This document shows positions 8,601 to 24,168 of a DNA stretch of 27,234 nucleotides, one piece after another (the first letter of the stretch is position 1; each line of letters begins with the position of its first letter). The position numbers and the translations under genes were made by a program. The notes beneath the pieces are model-generated. The model had not been told where the DNA came from, searched no databases, and was given only the letters and a program-made list of their open reading frames with translations. Location: the IMG/VR virus record IMGVR_UViG_3300044675_002459, positions 1 to 27,234 of that record, one strand, 5' to 3'. Origin of the DNA: a virus.

Positions 8601-9297
8601 CAGCCGGCTTAGGTACTGACTCGTAGATGTGTGTCTTTCCAGTAAATTCGCAGCTGGTGATTTCAAAAGGCATCGAAATGCCGCCAATTGTTTTGTTAAA
8701 TCCGAACACAGGAACATCAGAATTTGCAGTGTTTAACTTGTATTGTTCTGTAGGGATGCCGTTGATTGTCTTTTTGTCATACGGCTTGCCAAATGTAACA
8801 GAGCCGGGCATAGCACTGTTAATGATAGTGACAAACTGCTGGTACCAGTTAGTGTTGCTAACATCGTTCCAGGAAATAACTGTGTTTGCTAAATTGCTAC
8901 CGTTAGCATCAAATACGTTATCAGTAGTAGATATTGCTGTTAATTTTAAAAATCCATTGGCAGGAGTATTACGCTTGGCATTGTAGTTAATCAACTGTGC
9001 TAGACGCAAAATGCTGTCACGACGTTGTGCTGTTTCTAAAAAGTTCTCACGTGCATTAAGGTCAACACGGAAACTTAAATTCTGTCCAAGGTAAGCAATA
9101 AGATCGATTAGTGCAACATATTCACTAGATTCAATATAGTCGTTAAAATCTTCTGGGTACTTTTCGCGGAGATAAGAAATCATTGTCCTACGAAGAGTTT
9201 CAAAGTCGTAAGATTTAAAATCAGAATTCTTAAAAGATTGATATACCTTTTTCCAATCTTCTGCGACCAGTAGTTTTGAATTTGTTGACGGGATCAT
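5638..9297 (-). CDS. gp6: Baseplate wedge protein gp6 (enlarged)
   Basis: This 1219-aa protein is the gp6 wedge subunit, which in T4 dimerises to form the inner ring of the baseplate around the hub. The N-terminus (about residues 30-105: YDFETLRRTMISYL, then YVALIDLIAYLGQNL and RRDSILRLAQLINY) follows the T4 gp6 pattern. The later FYTQNRMITAEDYN segment (about 425) matches the family's baseplate-J-like core, and residues about 1080-1170 resemble T4 gp6's C-terminal core. T4 gp6 has 660 residues; most of the extra length lies between about 440 and 1060. That insert holds two short repeats of an N-x-G-x-GY type (near 6840-6910 and 6725-6800), which resemble small beta modules. The start is ATG, 24 nt downstream of an AATAAATA late-promoter-like box. 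It ends in a TAATG overlap with the next gene. Confidence 0.88.
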   Translation of the reverse strand: MIPSTNSKLLVAEDWKKVYQSFKNSDFKSYDFETLRRTMISYLREKYPEDFNDYIESSEYVALIDLIAYLGQNLSFRVDLNARENFLETAQRRDSILRLAQLINYNAKRNTPANGFLKLTAISTTDNVFDANGSNLANTVISWNDVSNTNWYQQFVTIINSAMPGSVTFGKPYDKKTINGIPTEQYKLNTANSDVPVFGFNKTIGGISMPFEITSCEFTGKTHIYESVPKPADQFSFIFRNDSKGSASANTGFFAHFRQGTLNLASFGVDAPVPNEIVGINASDINDNDVWLWQLDADGNYDTNWSKVQALTGNNVIYNSLSNQERNIFAVTTRENDQVDLNFADGLFGNLPKGQFVLFYRQSNGLKYSVKPEQINGVQISLPYFNKIGQKQQLSLTFSLQYTVNNSESSESDANIKLKAPQSFYTQNRMITAEDYNIAPLTAGADIVKIKSVNRISSGISKYYELSDVSGKYSGTNIFGEDGALYQEDKTLTLEFSYSNKNEIYAAVINKIIPIAESASMNNFYLNYWPRPAVSDPPAVWNQSTKSTNQSTGYFKDGLTGVALQTGIFAASNLSYLEPGALVKFVPPQGQYFLPNGNLTTVSDSTTKDFKWVKTSLIIGDGSYGGQGNLPDGTGPVIVTQNIPSNAIAREIIPPFDSVFSYSLQTDIVNLSLAKRNFGLSFAEDTRSWYVINDTDLDLTNPFTILYQKDSSNTNKDASWLFAFTWTGIGYEVKYRITDYIFESERDTSFFFDSTTKNYDFTKNTLVKDQIKILGTNPSPVNYGNAIISLTSTGTNGSVTGFNIINRGKGYVSTPQVTITGSSSGEFYPVLKNGSVDRIIVVNSGSGYNTLTSVVSISFSETQYSTLPLGIDYGWQIDGNIVEADGYIEPKKIQVSFLDEYEDNQIENPDAFTDIVAPASLSPQTGFKDKFVYFRYADNDLTYSIVTNAEILAYPTEEDVPQSAKVEGQLFYFYDKSINVIKHYSESAESSYVLQPNYFARPGRTGLKFQYRHNSGDDRRLDPSKTNLIDIFVLTQTYDTTYRNWLTSESGSEPLPPTSSELEENYSSTLEPIKAISDQLIYQPVKYKVLFGTQADRNLQATFKAVRNSTRSTTENELKSRILAGIEQFFALENWEFGQTFYFSELSTYIMNMMSPDITNFIIVPKADVPFGSLYEIACQNNEIFINGAGVSNIEIIDAITANQIKTTATIINSTLGVY
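6725..6910 (-). repeat. Tandem protein repeat (N-x-G-x-GY modules) within gp6
   Basis: Two adjacent segments of the gp6 insert are similar: GSVTGFNIINRGKGYVSTP followed by QVTI, and GSVDRIIVVNSGSGYNTLT followed by SVVSI. They share G-[ST]-V, alternating hydrophobics, N-x-G-x-GY and a final V-x-I strand. They look like two small beta modules in tandem, a design often seen in decorating parts of virion proteins. Confidence 0.6.
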
Positions 9298-17594: not shown

Positions 17595-18500
17595 ATGTCC
17601 ATAACAATATCACCAACTGGCCGCAAAGTCCGGTACCTTAATAACAAAGATTTATTAGCAGAGATTCACAAGAGTAAGAATACTTTTTCAAGTTTTACCA
17701 GTCCAGAATACAGCCAACATGATTTAATTTTACCTAGTGTTGACAAGATTAATATTCGTACAGCAGCAGAAGCAAAAAGAAATCGTGCTAAACGATTAGG
17801 GATTATTGCATTTACCGAAGCAAGGATCGCAGGAGATAAGAAAATAAAGTTAGCAGAATGCACTCCTGACTACAAAACTATTCCAAAAATAGACTTAGTG
17901 TTTAGAGTAATGACTTTTGATCATATTCCTACTGCACCAGGGCGTAAGAAAACAGTTAAAAGCACAGCAGATGCTCACGACAAGATTAACTTTCCTCCGT
18001 TCCAACACTGGAAATACAACGAGAATGATGAACTAGTGTGTGTAGGAAAAAGTCATTGGAAAGGTCCTGTTGACTCTGGTGCATTTTCAAAAGAGCACGG
18101 TCGTATTACTGAAAATCTAGGTAAGATGTTTATTAAATTAAGCGAGCGATATGCACAAAGATCTAATTGGCGTGGCTATACCTACAACGAAGAGATGCGT
18201 GGACAAGCAATTCTACAGTTATCGCAGATTGGATTACAATTTGACGAGTCTAAATCTGAAAATCCGTTTGCATATTACACTGCCGCAGTAACTAACAGTT
18301 TTACCAGAGTGTTAAACATTGAAAAGAAAATGCAAAATATTCGGGATGATATGTTAGAAGTTAACGGATTAACTCCTAGCTCAACTCGACAATACCGAGA
18401 CGAGTTCGCTGAAGAGACTGCACGCCAAGCAGAGTTGTATAAACATTTTAGACAGCCAAAATCAGAAGAACCGGACATCGAAGAAGAAGAAGGGGCTTGA
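17595..18500 (+). CDS. gp55: Late transcription sigma factor gp55
   Basis: This 301-aa protein is a gp55-type sigma factor, which directs the host RNA polymerase core to TATAAATA late promoters. The N-terminus (VRYLNNKDLLAEI, residues 12-24) matches T4 gp55's YVNNKELLQAI. The sigma region-2-like core at about 174-241 matches T4 well: LGKMFIKLSERYA, NWRGYTYNEEMRGQAILQ, then FDESKSENPFAYYTAAVTNSF. T4 gp55 has only 185 residues. The extra length is mainly an insert at about 45-170 that is Lys/Arg-rich and contains FPPFQHWKYN and VGKSHWKG. The C-terminus ends in an acidic EEPDIEEEEGA and lacks the hydrophobic LDFLYE-type motif with which T4 gp55 binds the sliding clamp. AGGAG stands before the ATG. 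Confidence 0.9.
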   Translation: MSITISPTGRKVRYLNNKDLLAEIHKSKNTFSSFTSPEYSQHDLILPSVDKINIRTAAEAKRNRAKRLGIIAFTEARIAGDKKIKLAECTPDYKTIPKIDLVFRVMTFDHIPTAPGRKKTVKSTADAHDKINFPPFQHWKYNENDELVCVGKSHWKGPVDSGAFSKEHGRITENLGKMFIKLSERYAQRSNWRGYTYNEEMRGQAILQLSQIGLQFDESKSENPFAYYTAAVTNSFTRVLNIEKKMQNIRDDMLEVNGLTPSSTRQYRDEFAEETARQAELYKHFRQPKSEEPDIEEEEGA

Positions 18501-18548: not shown

Positions 18549-19562
18549 ATGCAGTTATTCAAGAAAGTTGCCTGTTTCACAGACATACATTTCGGACTCA
18601 AGTCCAACAGTGCCACACACAATCAGGATTGTGAAGACTTTGTAGATTGGTTTATTGCAGAAGCTAAGAAAGAAGGGTGCGAAACCTGTATCTTTCTTGG
18701 CGACTGGCATCACAATCGCAACTCTATCAATCTAATTACTTTAGATACTAGTATGAGGTGCCTAGAAAAGCTAGGTGCTGCCTTTGAGCAGTTCTACTGG
18801 TTTCCAGGTAATCACGATCTGTTCTATAAAGACAAGCGTGATATTCATAGCTCGTCATTTGGACGTCACATTCCTGGTGTTACTGTGGTTGAAAAAGTAA
18901 CAACTGTTGGAGACGTTACGTTAGTACCGTGGCTAGTAGGCGATGAATGGAAGACTATTAGTCAAGTTAAAAGCAAATACATGTTTGGGCATTTTGAATT
19001 GCCGTTGTTCTATATGAACGCCATGGTGCAGATGCCTGATCACGGTGAACTTAAAGCCGAACACTTCAAGCATCAAGACTATGTGTTTAGCGGACACTTC
19101 CATAAACGTCAACAACGAGATAAAATTGTCTACATTGGCAATGCATTTCCTCACAATTTCTCAGACACATGGGACGATGATAGAGGAATGATGTTCATGT
19201 CCTGGGGCGGCAAGCCAGAATTTAGACTCTGGCCCGATGCTCCTAAGTTCCGTAGCTTAAAACTCAGCAGGTTGCTTGACGAAAAAGACACCTTGATGAA
19301 GAGTAAAATGTACTTAAAGGTTAATCTTGACATTGATATTAGTTTCGAAGAGGCAAACTTTATCAAAGAAACATTTGTTGCAGAGCACGATATTCGAGAA
19401 ATTAGCCTAATTCAAGACAAAGATAATTTAGATGCAGTAGTCGATGATACTGCTGACTCAAAATTTGAAAGTGTTGATCAAATCGTAACAGAACAACTGG
19501 TCGCAATTGAAAGCGATTCGTTCGATAAAAAAGTTCTACTAGATATCTATAATAATCTATAA
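18549..19562 (+). CDS. gp47: Recombination endonuclease subunit gp47 (SbcD/Mre11 family)
   Basis: This 337-aa protein is the metallophosphoesterase nuclease subunit of the gp46/gp47 complex, which resects DNA ends for recombination-dependent replication and host DNA breakdown. All phosphoesterase motifs are visible: DIH (12-14), GDWHH (51-55), GNHD (87-90), GHFE (147-150) and SGHFHKRQ (181-188). Its length matches T4 gp47 (339 aa). The gene has its own sigma70-type promoter and AGGAG. Its TAA overlaps the gp46 ATG (TAATG), as expected for subunits made in a fixed ratio. Confidence 0.96.
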   Translation: MQLFKKVACFTDIHFGLKSNSATHNQDCEDFVDWFIAEAKKEGCETCIFLGDWHHNRNSINLITLDTSMRCLEKLGAAFEQFYWFPGNHDLFYKDKRDIHSSSFGRHIPGVTVVEKVTTVGDVTLVPWLVGDEWKTISQVKSKYMFGHFELPLFYMNAMVQMPDHGELKAEHFKHQDYVFSGHFHKRQQRDKIVYIGNAFPHNFSDTWDDDRGMMFMSWGGKPEFRLWPDAPKFRSLKLSRLLDEKDTLMKSKMYLKVNLDIDISFEEANFIKETFVAEHDIREISLIQDKDNLDAVVDDTADSKFESVDQIVTEQLVAIESDSFDKKVLLDIYNNL

Positions 19563-21340
19563 TGTTCAAAATTAAAAATATAACTGTAAAGAATTTCTTA
19601 TCCGTAGGAAATCAAACTCAAGCTGTTGATTTTGACAAAGAAGCACTGACACTAGTATTAGGTGAGAACGTTGACTTAGGTGGGGACGATAGCGGATCAC
19701 GCAACGGCACGGGTAAAACTACCATGATTAATGCATTGAGCTACGCATTGTATGGTACTGCATTAACAAACATTAAAAAAGAAAACTTAATTAACAAAAC
19801 TAATGCAAAGCATATGTTAGTTACTGTAGAATTTGATGTTAATAATCAAAGTTTTAGAATTGAACGTGGTCGTAAACCTAACGTACTAAAGTTCTTTGTT
19901 AACAATCAAGAACAAAAGACTAAAGATGACGACGATAGTCAAGGAGATAGTAGAGAAACTCAGAAGGCAATTGAAGAATTGTTAGGTATGAGCCATACTA
20001 TGTTCAAGCACTTAGTTGCTCTTAACACTTATACAGAGCCCTTTTTAAGTATGAAGGCTGCTGATCAACGAGAAGTTATTGAGCAATTACTAGGTATTAC
20101 GTTACTTTCTGAAAAAGCAGAGCGATTAAAGGCCGAAGTTAAAGCTGTCAAAGACTCTATTCAATCAGAAACATATAAAATTGAGGGCATTAAAACTGCA
20201 AACGAAAATGTTCAGAAGAGCATTGACAGTTTAATCATTAAAAGCTCAGCGTGGGGTAACAAATACACTAATGAATTAGAAAGCCTTGGCAAAGCTATCT
20301 TAAATTTAGAAGCTGTAGACATTGAAGCTGAACTAATTGCCCATATAAATTTAAAACTATGGAATGAGAACGATTTAAAGATTCGTAACTTAAACAAACA
20401 ACGGGCTACTTTAGAATCAGCTGTTGGACAAGCACAAAAGACTAGAGACAAATATCTACGTGAAGTTGAATCGTTAGAAAGCAAAACATGCCCGTCGTGT
20501 GAACAAGAGCTACACGATCATAAACACGAAGAAATGGCTGCATCTGCTGTGCAACATCTGTCCGAAGCACAAGCATACTTTGACAAAGTCTCTGGAGATC
20601 TAGAAAAGACATTAGCTGAAATCGGTAGTGGGGATACTCTGCATAAACCCAACACATTCTATGACACCGAAGCAGAAGCACTAGGGCATAAGAACAATTT
20701 AGCAACATTGGAACGTGCATTAGAAGCCAAAGCCGAAGAAACAAATCCTTACGATGAACAAATTGCAGAATTAAAGAAAACTGCGATTCAAGCGATCGAC
20801 TGGACTACTGTTAACGAGCTATCAAAGTTAAAAGATCATCAAGAGTTTTTGTTAAAACTGCTAACAAACAAAGACAGCTTTATTCGTAAAAAGATTATTG
20901 ATCAAAACTTAGCACATTTGAATAAACGACTCAGCTACTATATCAGTAAGATGGGATTGCCACATACTGTTGTGTTTCAGAACGATCTAAATGTGGAAAT
21001 TACACAGCTAGGACAGGACTTAGACTTCGATAATCTCAGTAGAGGTGAACGAAATAGGCTCATCTTGAGCCTAAGCTGGGCGTTCCGTGATGTGTGGGAA
21101 AACTTGTACCAACACATTAATCTGTTATTCATTGACGAATTGATCGATGCAGGTATGGATGCAGCAGGTGTAGAGTCTGGTTTAGCAGTTCTAAAGAAGA
21201 TGGCACGTGAAAGAAGTAAGAATATATACTTGATTTCGCACAAAGATGAGCTGGTAGGACGAGTAAACAACGTCTTAAAAGTTATTAAAGAGAACGGTTT
21301 TACCTCTTACTCAAATAATGTCGACTACGTAGAAGCATAA
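19562..21340 (+). CDS. gp46: Recombination endonuclease ATPase subunit gp46 (SbcC/Rad50 family)
   Basis: This 592-aa protein is the SMC-like ATPase partner of gp47. The Walker A motif NGTGKTT is at about residues 48-54. Two long helical arms flank a zinc hook, CPSC (Cys310 and Cys313). The ABC signature LSRGERNR begins at 492, Walker B is LLFIDE with Asp525/Glu526, and the H-loop lies in LISHKDE. The length is close to T4 gp46 (560 aa). ATP-driven movement of the arms is known in the family to gate the nuclease. It is translationally coupled on both sides through TAATG overlaps, with gp47 before it and a small basic protein after it. Confidence 0.96.
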   Translation: MFKIKNITVKNFLSVGNQTQAVDFDKEALTLVLGENVDLGGDDSGSRNGTGKTTMINALSYALYGTALTNIKKENLINKTNAKHMLVTVEFDVNNQSFRIERGRKPNVLKFFVNNQEQKTKDDDDSQGDSRETQKAIEELLGMSHTMFKHLVALNTYTEPFLSMKAADQREVIEQLLGITLLSEKAERLKAEVKAVKDSIQSETYKIEGIKTANENVQKSIDSLIIKSSAWGNKYTNELESLGKAILNLEAVDIEAELIAHINLKLWNENDLKIRNLNKQRATLESAVGQAQKTRDKYLREVESLESKTCPSCEQELHDHKHEEMAASAVQHLSEAQAYFDKVSGDLEKTLAEIGSGDTLHKPNTFYDTEAEALGHKNNLATLERALEAKAEETNPYDEQIAELKKTAIQAIDWTTVNELSKLKDHQEFLLKLLTNKDSFIRKKIIDQNLAHLNKRLSYYISKMGLPHTVVFQNDLNVEITQLGQDLDFDNLSRGERNRLILSLSWAFRDVWENLYQHINLLFIDELIDAGMDAAGVESGLAVLKKMARERSKNIYLISHKDELVGRVNNVLKVIKENGFTSYSNNVDYVEA

Positions 21341-21820: not shown

Positions 21821-22252
21821 TTGAACAACTGGACTTATCAGAGTACTGAGGTCTCAGAATTGCCTGAAGACTGTATTGGTTTTGTTTATTGCATCACTAA
21901 TACAGTCACAGGTCGCCGTTATATCGGCAAAAAATTAGCAAAATTTAGTAAAACGACCTACAAGACTGTAAAGTTAAAGAACGGCACCAAGAAGAAAAAG
22001 AAGATTAGAAGTAAAATTGACAGCGACTGGCAGGAATACTACGGGTCCAGCGTTGAACTATCTAAAGACATAGACGCTTTAGGCAAAGACAAATTCACCC
22101 GCGAAATATTACATTACTGTAAAAGCAAAGCAGAAACATCTTACGTTGAGGCCCGAGAACAATTCGACCGCAAAGTATTAGAATCCGACGATTACTACAA
22201 TGGACATATCCAAGTCCGTGTACATGGCTCACACATTAAATCCAAACTTTAA
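21821..22252 (+). CDS. GIY-YIG family endonuclease
   Basis: This 143-aa protein carries a GIY-YIG nuclease fold. FVY (21-23) stands for GIY, RRYIGKK holds YIG (34-36), and a likely metal-binding Glu lies near 110 in SYVEAREQF. DWQEYYGSS and YYNG segments are typical of a small phage subfamily. The middle is very Lys-rich (KNGTKKKKKIRSK). The start is TTG directly after the histone-like stop codon, with AAGG 11 nt upstream, so translation is probably coupled. There is no separate DNA-binding domain. It may be a free-standing homing endonuclease or a nuclease against host DNA. A structured non-coding segment follows it. Confidence 0.82.
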   Translation: MNNWTYQSTEVSELPEDCIGFVYCITNTVTGRRYIGKKLAKFSKTTYKTVKLKNGTKKKKKIRSKIDSDWQEYYGSSVELSKDIDALGKDKFTREILHYCKSKAETSYVEAREQFDRKVLESDDYYNGHIQVRVHGSHIKSKL

Positions 22253-22273
22253 GGCAACTTAATTCAGTTATAG

Positions 22274-22548
22274 CTTCCACCGGCTTAATATCGGGTGGCG
22301 AACAGTAGAAACCTGGACTAACATCGCAGGGATCCGAAGTCTTACCGCTGAAGTAAGCACTCAATCAGTATCCTTAACCGGACCACGATCGCAAAATGCC
22401 TGCGGTTTGATTGTTTGAATAGAGTTAAAAATAAGGCCCAAGGATGGAGTAATAACAGAAACTCCACGCTTTACAAATATGATAGTGTATATTTGTAAGC
22501 CGCCGTTGAAATAAGACAGAGCGAGTAGGTATCGGTCAACCGCCTACG
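22274..22548 (+). ncRNA. Candidate structured non-coding RNA
   Basis: No reading frame of useful length exists here, and the segment looks richer in G+C than the AT-rich genes around it. By eye it contains: CCACC/GGTGG (22277-22281 with 22294-22298); CTTAC/GTAAG (22341-22345 with 22353-22357); ATCGCAGG/CCTGCGGT (22323-22330 with 22399-22406, one G-U); ATCCTT/AAGGAT (22370-22375 with 22440-22445), which crosses the previous helix and would form a pseudoknot; TGGAGT/ACTCCA (22445-22450 with 22461-22466); a 12-bp stem with one bulge (22468-22480 with 22489-22500); and GTAGG-CGG/CCG-CCTAC (22525-22547, TCAA loop). I recognise no named RNA family. It could also be a long 3' UTR. Confidence 0.4.
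22468..22500 (+). other. 12-bp hairpin in the non-coding segment
   Basis: The arms 22468-22480 and 22489-22500 pair over 12 bp with a single bulged T and an 8-nt loop. It is the longest stem in the segment and stands beside the TGGAGT/ACTCCA stem. No U run follows it, so it is not a simple terminator. Confidence 0.7.
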
Positions 22549-22555
22549 TTGTTGT

Positions 22556-22581
22556 TTATAGTTAATTATAGACAATTATAG
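22556..22581 (+). repeat. Three TTATAG repeats at exact 10-bp spacing
   Basis: TTATAG occurs at 22556, 22566 and 22576, each followed by a 4-nt spacer (TTAA, ACAA, then TTCT). The 10-bp period is one helical turn, so all copies face the same side of the DNA. This is typical of iterons or of bound-protein arrays. One more TTATAG lies at 22268. Confidence 0.6.
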
Positions 22582-22625
22582 TTCTAACACTATGTGACTG
22601 TGCTACTCAGATAATGCAGTTTTTT

Positions 22626-22647
22626 CTTAGCCCTTGCCTGGGCTAAG
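22626..22647 (+). other. Perfect 8-bp hairpin
   Basis: CTTAGCCC (22626-22633) pairs with GGGCTAAG (22640-22647) around TTGCCT. A run of six T lies before the stem on the plus strand, which is the wrong side for an intrinsic terminator in either direction. It may stop or process upstream transcripts by another route, or protect a 3' end. Confidence 0.6.
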
Positions 22648-22704
22648 TGTGACCGATTAATCTAGATAATATTTAAATGCTACGCATATATCATATAACT
22701 AAAA

Positions 22705-22748
22705 TTGCTTCGAGCGTTAGCGAAGAAGCAAATGAGCGTAAGCTCATT
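22705..22748 (+). other. Two adjacent hairpins abutting the late promoter
   Basis: TTGCTTC/GAAGCAA (22705-22711 with 22725-22731) is followed directly by AATGAGC-GTAA-GCTCATT (22731-22748), a 7-bp stem with a GNRA-type loop. The two share a GAGCGTTAGC/GAGCGTAAGC core. The second stem touches the first base of TATAAATA. They could isolate the late promoter from upstream transcripts, although no U run follows. Confidence 0.6.
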
Positions 22749-22755
22749 ATAAATA
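22748..22755 (+). promoter_or_regulatory. Perfect T4-type late promoter
   Basis: TATAAATA, identical to the T4 late consensus, lies 24 nt before the 22780 ATG. A GGA Shine-Dalgarno core (22770-22772) follows. It should drive both the 22780 and 24182 genes. Confidence 0.8.
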
Positions 22756-22779
22756 CACAACAATATTTCGGAAATACTT

Positions 22780-24168
22780 ATGGACATATCAGCACTGATT
22801 AAAAGGATAGATGGGATTGAAAGCAATCAAAGAGTTAGTGTCTTTGAAAGCCTAGGTCGTGGTGATGCTTACTTTGAAACTTGGGAAAGAGAAATACACC
22901 CAATGCTATGCGAAGTAGCAATGGATCCTGCCCAGGTAAAGCAACTGTTCACGTCGATTGAAAAGAATGCTGGCCGTAGTACTTTAGGCAAAGCAAGTGA
23001 TGCGGTTAAAGGTGCCAAAGATAAAATCAGTGATGTTTGGTTTAATAAGTTTGGGGGTATGCTACAAAGCAGCGGCCCTGTACAGGCATTTGATCAAAAG
23101 TTTGAAGATATTAAATCAAAGATTTCTGCAAAGAATCCAGAGTTAGCAGCTAAGTTAGCCAAATACGGAGAGTTTGCTAAGAACAATCCTAACTTACATA
23201 AGTTCTTGCTGGCCATTGCAGGATCGGCAGCAGCCGCATTGGGCGTTGCTCTTGCAGGCGGTGTTGGTGCAGGTGCTCTTGCTGTAGGTACGGGTGCAGG
23301 TATTGCTACTGGTATTATTAACATTGCTGATCGTTTATTAAAAGGACAGAAAGCCAGTACAGCTATCGGACGTGGTGCAACCGCAGGTATAGTAGCTGGG
23401 TTAACTGCTGGAACATTAGCTAAGATAGGCGGCTGGTTGGCCGGTATGAGAGAACAATCAATACCATTAGGCGACACAGGTATTGAAGAAGTCAGTTACC
23501 GAGCTACTAAAACTTTAAAAAGTTTTGGTATGGAAATGACTGAAATGGTCCAAGGATTTAAAGTTGCTGTTAATCCTGAAGAAGCAAGCGGAGTTCGTGC
23601 AGCAATGAATCTAATCCAGAACGGAGAAGTTGAAGGGTTTAATCAACTTCAAGATATTGCTAGGGTTATACAAAGTAAAGAATATAAAGACGGTATCAAA
23701 GCAACGTTAGATGCAGCTAAACAAGTTGCTTTTAATAATGATAGTCTTCTACAATGGATCAAAGGTGTTACTAAGGTAGCATCAACTGTGGGTGCAGCCG
23801 GTGCTGGCCAAGCAGCAGCAGGAGCAGGGGAAACACCGCCAGCAGCACCTGCACCGGTAGCAGAGTCCTTAAACAGAGCACAACTAAACGAATTGTTTGG
23901 CATCACGGGCAACAAAGTAGATGCTAGCAAGTTAGAAAAAGCGTGGACTAAAGCAGGAAGTCCTACAGACAGCGAAGAAATCAAACAGATTTTAGTCAGT
24001 GCAGGAGTTGATGAGCAATTGGTAGCAACTGCATTTACTGATCTAGGAATTGAAGTTAGTTCTGCAGCCCCTGCAGGCGAAACGGTAAATATACAGGAAT
24101 TGTTAGCACAGATTGCAAAATTAAGTGCTGCTGAACAAAAAGAAATTTTAGCTTACGCCCAAGCGTGA
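22780..24168 (+). CDS. Late virion-type protein with Gly/Ala hydrophobic segment
   Basis: This 462-aa protein is expressed from a perfect late promoter, so it is probably structural. Residues about 142-183 and 195-222 are long Gly/Ala hydrophobic runs (FLLAIAGSAAAALGVALAGG, then later GIVAGLTAGTLAKIGGWLAG) like glycine-zipper membrane segments. The flanking parts are charged and helical. The C-terminus has a Pro/Ala linker near 345-362, then ESLNRAQLNELFG and a final helix (ELLAQIAKLSAAEQKEIL) that resembles a helix in the next gene's product. A protein packed in the head and ejected into the host membrane would fit, but this is inference. No known family is recognised. Confidence 0.7.
   Translation: MDISALIKRIDGIESNQRVSVFESLGRGDAYFETWEREIHPMLCEVAMDPAQVKQLFTSIEKNAGRSTLGKASDAVKGAKDKISDVWFNKFGGMLQSSGPVQAFDQKFEDIKSKISAKNPELAAKLAKYGEFAKNNPNLHKFLLAIAGSAAAALGVALAGGVGAGALAVGTGAGIATGIINIADRLLKGQKASTAIGRGATAGIVAGLTAGTLAKIGGWLAGMREQSIPLGDTGIEEVSYRATKTLKSFGMEMTEMVQGFKVAVNPEEASGVRAAMNLIQNGEVEGFNQLQDIARVIQSKEYKDGIKATLDAAKQVAFNNDSLLQWIKGVTKVASTVGAAGAGQAAAGAGETPPAAPAPVAESLNRAQLNELFGITGNKVDASKLEKAWTKAGSPTDSEEIKQILVSAGVDEQLVATAFTDLGIEVSSAAPAGETVNIQELLAQIAKLSAAEQKEILAYAQA

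Follow-up and report, generated by a model that had tools for sequence, protein, structure and literature searches.

The window analyzed here (the whole stretch of DNA, 27,234 nucleotides) almost certainly encodes a real structured phage RNA. This RNA is about 400-460 nt long and pseudoknotted, and it is present in hundreds of phage contigs from metagenomes. The conserved element exceeds the model by which Rfam knows it, as the family RF01718 represents only its first third. Further downstream the same 7-mer occurs twice, and the two copies vary from phage to phage while they nearly always match within a phage. In the following, we demonstrate that the element exists, how it folds, where it occurs, and that its twin repeats are identical.

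A conserved element behind SegE

The gene content points to a T4-like phage as the source of the DNA. Besides a gp55-like late sigma factor (17595-18500) and baseplate genes, the window encodes a metallophosphatase and a protein of the SMC/RecN type (18549-21340), which occupy the place of gp47 and gp46. The RNA and the two genes upstream of it that are important for the following analysis are:

19562-21340, + strand: gp46-like SbcC subunit, syntenic upstream gene
21821-22252, + strand: SegE-like GIY-YIG protein (PF19835, phrog_447), upstream neighbor
22272-22735, + strand: whole conserved RNA element, from profile matches downstream of SegE and covariation

A preliminary description of this DNA had reported about 300 nt without a gene that contain a structured RNA. 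Both claims are borne out, the former by the absence of a long gene between the SegE stop at 22252 and an ORF start at 22780, the latter by covariation and by the Rfam match. With a minimum of 40 aa, only four ORFs reach into the gap, and these are 41-48 aa long. A decayed gene, which had been considered as one outcome that would speak against an RNA, is rejected on the basis of these short frames and the covariation, and the match that was found is to an RNA family, RF01718. The RNA starts about 20 nt after the SegE stop; its 5' end lies near 22272, while its 3' end is uncertain within 22672-22755, and the profile match in the window spans 22272-22755. The interval proposed originally, 22253-22560, was too short, as conservation reaches to about 22735. 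The claim that the region is GC-rich is weak, because the GC content is 0.365-0.45 over the region versus 0.32-0.515 within about 1.5 kb (200-nt windows).

The best 80 of 591 loci with SegE relatives were taken for the comparative analysis. They contain, together with the window, 74 regions of more than 250 nt downstream of SegE (73 loci and the window), and 70 distinct regions remained after the removal of four duplicates. An nhmmer profile that was built outward from the window matched 64 of these 70 regions, with nearly full-length model coverage in 48 of the 64 and with matches to the 3' half only in some of the regions, e.g., L067, L024, and L061. A blastn search with the element against 50,697 phage records yielded no match.

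The sequence TATAAATA, the T4 late promoter motif, is present at 22749-22756. It precedes the ORF of 462 aa that starts at 22780, for which no match was found in Pfam and PHROG.

Covariation and fold

The alignment of homologues and the search for covarying pairs, proposed in the preliminary description as a check, revealed base-pair covariation. The set comprised 119 dereplicated full-length sequences, which were chosen by an identical 6-mer in both repeats, and the null for coupling consisted of 40 alignments that were simulated along the tree so that each column kept its number of changes. The coupling of 20 column pairs was above every null value. Sixteen of them are Watson-Crick pairs (87-100% standard), three are identity pairs, and one is a pyrimidine swap at 22371 and 22383. 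This non-canonical pair, which adjoins a CC/GG mini-stem, is U-C in most sequences and C-U in the others.

Eleven helices with 59 pairs in total were evaluated as one structure with an alignment (A1) of 32 of the 119 sequences (32 of 83 listed). In this alignment 95.8% of the cells of the structure are paired, compared to 77.3% after shuffling, and 47 of the 59 pairs have changed on both sides, compared to 31.0. The covariation score of the structure is 0.539 versus 0.203, and none of 500 shuffles reached the observed values. When the partner was slid by 1-3 columns, 36-46% were paired. As the structure comes from the very family on which it was evaluated, it is biased towards itself, but the gap to the shuffles is still large. 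The helices are:

22277-22281 with 22294-22298, + strand: P1; 100% paired, 5/5 pairs double-changed
22341-22344 with 22354-22357, + strand: P3; 98.4% paired, 3/4 pairs double-changed
22362-22367 with 22408-22413, + strand: P4; 99.5% paired, 5/6 double-changed, three pairs significant
22387-22392 with 22402-22407, + strand: P5; 99.0% paired, two pairs significant
22446-22448 with 22463-22465, + strand: P6; 92.6% paired
22470-22480 with 22489-22499, + strand: P7; 90.6% paired, 11/11 pairs double-changed
22482-22488 (P7 loop) with 22587-22593, + strand: pseudoknot PK1; 99.1% paired, 7/7 double-changed
22505-22509 with 22536-22540, + strand: P8; 96.8% paired, 3/5 double-changed
22519-22522 with 22581-22584, + strand: P9; 95.3% paired
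22525-22529 with 22543-22547, + strand: P10; core of three pairs 100% paired, one double-changed
22626-22633 with 22640-22647, + strand: hairpin P11 between the repeat copies; 81-100% per position in 119 sequences
22707-22711 with 22725-22729, + strand: 3' hairpin P12; 85.2% paired, pair 22710-22726 significant

PK1 is the top helix by summed covariation, and the strongest single covarying pair is 22519-22584 in P9. Two helices of the fold cross others, namely, the pairing of the P7 loop with 22587-22593 and P8, which runs across P9 and P10. The outer pair of P10 is formed in 88%, and one further P10 pair is found in the window only. In A1, P11 is not correctly aligned (19-97% per position), and it was left out of the count of 59 pairs.

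The two helices that had been named from the window alone are not supported. The 8-bp helix of 22323-22330 with 22399-22406 has standard pairs in 32-96% per position and clashes with the covarying helix P5, and the 6-bp pseudoknot of 22370-22375 with 22440-22445 has standard pairs in 7-98% per position (up to 119 homologues in both cases). Taken together, they are 66.4% paired compared to 65.4% after shuffling (reached by 25 of 500 shuffles), their covariation score is 0.109 versus 0.101 (reached by 68 of 500), and 31-54% are paired after sliding. It is PK1 and not the named pairing that is supported as a pseudoknot. Folding energies of single sequences revealed little of the structure, with z-scores of -0.43 for 22253-22560, which does not exceed chance (32 of 100 shuffles at least as stable), and -1.78 for 22270-22735 (5 of 100 shuffles as stable).

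The 5' domain is Rfam family RF01718

A search with the Rfam covariance models had also been suggested, and a permissive cmscan identified the 5' domain:

22272-22416, + strand: RF01718 (Polynucleobacter-1); cmscan 76.1 bits, E 2.2e-16

The score of 76.1 bits compares with a gathering threshold of 37, and the 145 nt at the 5' end match the whole model (positions 1-141 of 141). A gathering-level Rfam scan with fast filters on the whole 27-kb window returned nothing despite this 76-bit match. RF01718 was found above the cut-off in 33 of the 42 phage records searched (42 of the 80 SegE loci), and the best relatives reach 121 bits. P1, P3, P4, and P5 correspond to helices of RF01718; they are 98.4-100% paired, and each of them contains double-changed pairs. 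Beyond the Rfam model the element runs 260-320 nt further and includes two pseudoknots and the twin repeats. The earlier notion of a new phage RNA is supported, with the correction that the first third is already present in Rfam as RF01718. An orphan Rfam family thereby becomes the front third of a much larger and abundant phage RNA.

The Rfam scan did not find RF01718 in L067 and L024, two of the regions with matches to the 3' half only, nor in any of 13 loci of the B and D types, of which L311 ends before the 5' half. As matches to the 3' half occur where RF01718 is not found, variants with other 5' halves seem to exist. The B- and D-type relatives (L302-L421 and L541-L628) have kept the 3' module with the twin repeats, and their 5' half is apparently different. 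The RNA was found in 0 of 4 bacterial genomes and in 0 of 369 genomes of the class of G075, in searches that were run without a positive control.

Scarcely anything was found in the literature under the name Polynucleobacter-1 or the accession RF01718. In the part of the original description that lists the motif, it is placed under Burkholderiales and fresh water/estuary and is marked "y" (probably) for a cis-regulatory function, which is usually assumed there when a motif commonly precedes coding regions (Weinberg et al., 2010; PMC2864571). The element described here departs from that assignment in two respects: it is encoded by phages, and it does not generally serve as a leader.

Gene neighborhood

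The neighborhood was analyzed with elements that had been found by patterns of the RNA 3' end and not via SegE; these elements carry the same 6-mer in both repeats and have 1 kb or more of upstream sequence. Among the matches listed, 248 of 256 elements have SegE upstream in the same orientation, a further 63 elements having too little flank. In the other eight, a SegE match is absent within 3 kb upstream, and other genes precede the RNA. Among the listed elements with at least 3 kb upstream, gp46 is present within 5 kb in 163 and SegE in 181 of 186. The block is largely syntenic, and therefore the adjacency of SegE is part of a larger conserved order, gp55-gp47-gp46-SegE. The connection with the nuclease that had been noticed in the window is thus real as a gene order, but it belongs to a largely syntenic block and has the mentioned exceptions. 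The RNA is conserved in hundreds of metagenome contigs, mostly behind core genes of replication and recombination, and therefore it is probably important to its phages.

The distance between SegE and the RNA can be as large as 2150 nt, and another gene lies between them in several loci, e.g., L026, L045, and L074. The first downstream ORF of at least 120 aa runs opposite to the RNA in 133 of 235 elements and in the same direction in 102 (among the matches listed). The intervening genes and the downstream orientation fit an RNA that is an independent unit behind the operon, and not the leader of the next gene. SegE relatives are encoded in 412 records of the phage collection; in the five such regions that were opened no such RNA was found, and L112-L116 had no HMM match.

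Some of the genes around the element merit a brief description. The intervening genes of L045 and L074 contain, as judged by eye, motifs that look like those of SGNH hydrolases, while the protein of L045 had no match in Pfam. In L570 the gene that precedes the RNA in the place of SegE matches PF24608 (PDDEXK_15, putative endonuclease), and the respective genes of L614 and L491 are nuclease-like and resemble that of L570 (by eye).

Two repeats of identical sequence

The 3' part of the RNA contains two copies of a short repeat:

22605-22615, + strand: repeat copy 1, ACTC followed by AGATAAT; identity with copy 2 across elements
22660-22670, + strand: repeat copy 2, ATCT followed by AGATAAT; identity with copy 1 across elements

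The 7-mer has the consensus RNATNAD, or more narrowly RVATNAD, and occurs twice around P11 at a spacing of 47-65 nt, which is continuous and without clear helical phasing. Viral contigs were scanned with four patterns from the RNA 3' end. Copy 1 is entirely free in these patterns, and copy 2 is constrained to ATCT and at letters 3, 4, and 6 of its 7-mer. The matches listed are a lower bound. Among them, 428 elements have both copies, and the copies are identical over all seven letters in 422 and over the first six letters in all 428. The six exceptions (L320 and five D-type loci) differ at position 7 only. The remaining 18 of the 446 pattern matches are 11 contigs that end early and seven chance matches. 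When copy 1 was picked blind by the nearest ACTC, 329 of 339 distinct sequences (among the matches listed) had identical copies, compared to a mean of 43 and a maximum of 62 when the copies were shuffled between elements, or a mean of 98.7 and a maximum of 117 when they were shuffled within groups. Of the ten exceptions, five differ at position 7, and five, all in set C, can be explained by the choice of a second ACTC in the spacer, because an identical copy exists in every complete set-C match.

Further observations are in agreement with this result. Both copies are present in 57 loci of the SegE-locus set with nine different 7-mers, in a search that required the same 7-mer, and no mismatch occurred when the copies of this set were listed independently. 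The three identity pairs above all null values in the 119 sequences are 22609-22664, 22613-22668, and 22615-22670, two of which are partly selected because an identical 6-mer was required for this set. On the tree of the same sequences, preselected for identical first six letters, at least 32, 7, 9, and 12 changes have occurred at the four variable positions, with no difference between the copies. In bacterial genomes, which served as a control, the same pattern had 67 matches, only one of which has the pair, and that one (L272) also matches the profile. The identity is retained in the divergent locus L034, which contains AGACGAA twice (by eye). The relative downstream of SegE in L035 is very divergent; its repeats read roughly GGCAT plus RTAT, and a further similar stretch is present inside the 5' domain (all by eye).

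The sequences around the 7-mers agree to a lower degree. In A1 GTGA(C) precedes both copies at a short distance, which is six nt for copy 2 and variable for copy 1. In the 6-mer-selected set the copies agree at position +2 after the 7-mer in 73% and in the letter before the copies in 60%. The fixed differences between the copies (prefix letters 2-4, mostly also +1) are transitions, and thus a single partner strand could pair with both copies by G-U wobble.

Scans based on pairing would overlook this type of covariation, in which two short sequences apart from each other stay strictly identical, and it offers a direct handle for finding the partner.

Searches for a partner

A complement of the repeat that covaries with it was not found inside the RNA (119-sequence alignment). 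An internal, fixed U-rich stretch can form wobble pairs with many of the repeats, but there is no covariation. Across the window and the SegE loci, most of which span 3-6 kb, the complement of the 7-mer had no common place, and none was found at conserved places in five phage genomes. In these five genomes, apart from the element, there are two aligned places at which a hexamer switches together with the repeat, both inside coding genes that resemble, by eye, a MoxR-type ATPase and a DNA polymerase, and four aligned places with an unchanged hexamer. A 12-nt partner common to both copies was also sought, and none of the sites listed (at most eight of the 3-20 found per genome) pairs with both over all 12 positions.

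A protein partner encoded next to the RNA was also considered. The normalized mutual information between SegE residues and the repeat is at most 0.17 for repeat positions 1 and 5, and 0.42 and 0.25 for positions 2 and 7 (184 of 207 elements, 6-mer-selected), and the association with positions 2 and 7 may be due to shared descent. A reverse transcriptase domain (RVT_1) was found in none of 42 long phage records with the element, some of which are perhaps incomplete. A literature search for GIY-YIG proteins together with RNA-guided systems or noncoding RNA retrieved nothing evidently related.

Possible function and alternative explanations

We favor the explanation that the element, encoded just behind the gp55-gp47-gp46-SegE block in a widespread, metagenome-derived group of T4-like phages, is a stand-alone structured RNA of about 400-460 nt that acts in trans and offers the same recognition sequence twice to one partner, and on the basis of the sequence comparisons we give it an even chance. 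The RNA folds into some twelve helices, with two pseudoknots. Its 7-mers (AYYY-RNAUNAD), which are identical and each follow a GUGA-like motif at a distance of a few nt, would engage the same partner twice. This partner might be either a nucleic acid, which would base-pair with each of the two copies, or a symmetric protein dimer, and the remainder of the RNA would serve as a rigid scaffold to hold both 7-mers in position. A nucleic acid is hinted at by the fixed differences between the copies, all of which wobble pairing could tolerate. With a wobble-tolerant partner, however, mismatched intermediates would be expected, and none was found at positions 1-6 in 428 elements (among the matches listed), which hints at something stricter than wobble. 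A symmetric protein would be compatible with the data as well, as would a partner from outside the phage genome. A more far-reaching version, which we regard as rather unlikely, holds that the twin 7-mers reflect a mechanism that, to our knowledge, is not known for any RNA. Two sites of one RNA would be forced to share a freely changing sequence because one partner must read both exactly, or one copy would be templated from the other, and the RNA would be a new class of phage machine of which Polynucleobacter-1 is a fragment.

The most serious alternative, in our view somewhat less likely again, is a 3'-UTR element of the gp46-SegE operon that stabilizes, ends, or regulates the upstream messenger and is not a separate RNA. 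It would account for the location of the RNA about 20 nt after the SegE stop and for the upstream SegE on the same strand in 248 of the 256 listed elements. More generally, nearly every element examined is preceded by a gene of the same orientation, which also fits this role. No outstanding sigma-70-like promoter is present around the RNA in the window (four found versus 4.4 expected), and the synonymous diversity of SegE, about 0.8 along most of the gene, does not clearly drop near the end, with values of 0.38-0.69 in the last four codons only and one other dip to 0.59 at codons 81-90; both are in agreement with a 3'-UTR. Yet other genes can intervene between SegE and the RNA, as in L026, L045, and L074, and the distance can reach 2150 nt; eight of the 256 listed elements lack a SegE match in the 3 kb upstream, and the fold is far bigger than a terminator or stabilizer requires. 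The long regulated UTR of the preliminary description survives in this form, as a possible 3'-UTR role of the SegE operon, while a general role as the leader of the downstream gene is contradicted by the 133 of 235 downstream ORFs (among the matches listed) in opposite orientation.

It is improbable that the sequence functions as DNA, as an origin, a recombination site, or a regulator-binding site with the direct repeats as protein-binding sites. Two short, strictly identical direct repeats and the synteny with the recombination genes gp46 and gp47 would be expected for such a site, but the continuous spacing of 47-65 lacks clear helical phasing, only one ACTC/ATCT pair is present in each of five genomes, and Watson-Crick covariation and pseudoknots in the surrounding 400 nt are needed by an RNA only.

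A guide or scaffold bound by the SegE nuclease, comparable to the omega RNA of IscB or TnpB, is suggested by the adjacency in 248 of the 256 listed elements. We consider it slightly less probable than a DNA site, as the five opened regions with SegE relatives (from the 412 records) show no such RNA, the RNA also occurs without SegE nearby, and the residues of SegE do not vary together with repeat positions 1 and 5.

The twin 7-mers might also be cut sites that release a 50-nt hairpin, as in the processing of type III toxin-antitoxin systems. Identical motifs that flank a hairpin and mismatches at position 7 alone would be in accord with this mechanism, but it leaves the large conserved 5' body unexplained, and we regard it as quite unlikely.

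Even less can be said for a cis-regulatory leader of the downstream gene. This role is suggested for Polynucleobacter-1 by the "y" (probably) in the 2010 table (Weinberg et al., 2010; PMC2864571), but the first ORF of at least 120 aa is on the opposite strand in the majority of the listed elements, which contradicts it as a general role. The presumed gene-leader role of Polynucleobacter-1 is thus corrected.

The least probable mechanism among those considered is template jumping, in which an enzyme copies the RNA and the product re-anneals from copy 1 to copy 2. It would account for strict identity without wobble intermediates and for the tolerance at the distal position, but the 42 long records with the element, though some are perhaps incomplete, contain no RVT_1 domain. 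Telomerase RNA and the template RNAs of DRT2 have two short stretches of one RNA that are identical, a property they share with the element, but no reverse transcriptase was found in the 42 records with the element.

Two further ideas were rejected. A degenerate ribozyme, proposed in the preliminary description, or an intron remnant is without support. The permissive Rfam scan contained no intron family among its three matches, and interrupted exons are absent, as a complete SegE ORF is present on one side and genes of either orientation on the other. Ribosomal bypassing was considered because T4 gene 60, like the element, carries short identical sequences on both sides of a hairpin at a distance of about 50 nt. 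Here, in contrast, the identity extends over 6-7 nt and not over a codon, the spacing is not a multiple of three but is spread over the three frames (59/81/67), and no reading frame is conserved into copy 1 or out of copy 2. The open length has a median of 6-10 codons into copy 1, with at least 20 codons in 56-84 of 207 elements per frame, and a median of 1-10 codons out of copy 2 (207 elements, 6-mer-selected).

Other large phage RNAs

GOLLD, ROOL, OLE, and HEARO are large structured RNAs of phages and bacteria that are contained in Rfam. The element resembles them in that it is large, consists of many helices, was unannotated, and has a function of which little, or only part, is known; none of them was among the matches of the permissive Rfam scans.

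The list of gp46 relatives in the phage collection is headed (50%) by those of two jumbo phages, the Pseudomonas phage PA5oct (L667) and Paride (L666), which have the same order as the window, i.e., sigma-gp47-gp46 ... baseplate hub. The profile of the element has no match in these two phages. Between the respective genes of PA5oct there is a stretch of 1.35 kb (L667:9180-10530) with only tiny annotated ORFs, which is common to eleven records at 99% or more. It is preceded by a sigma-70 promoter that matches at 12 of 12 positions (PA5oct 9149-9177), and it possibly encodes another large RNA.
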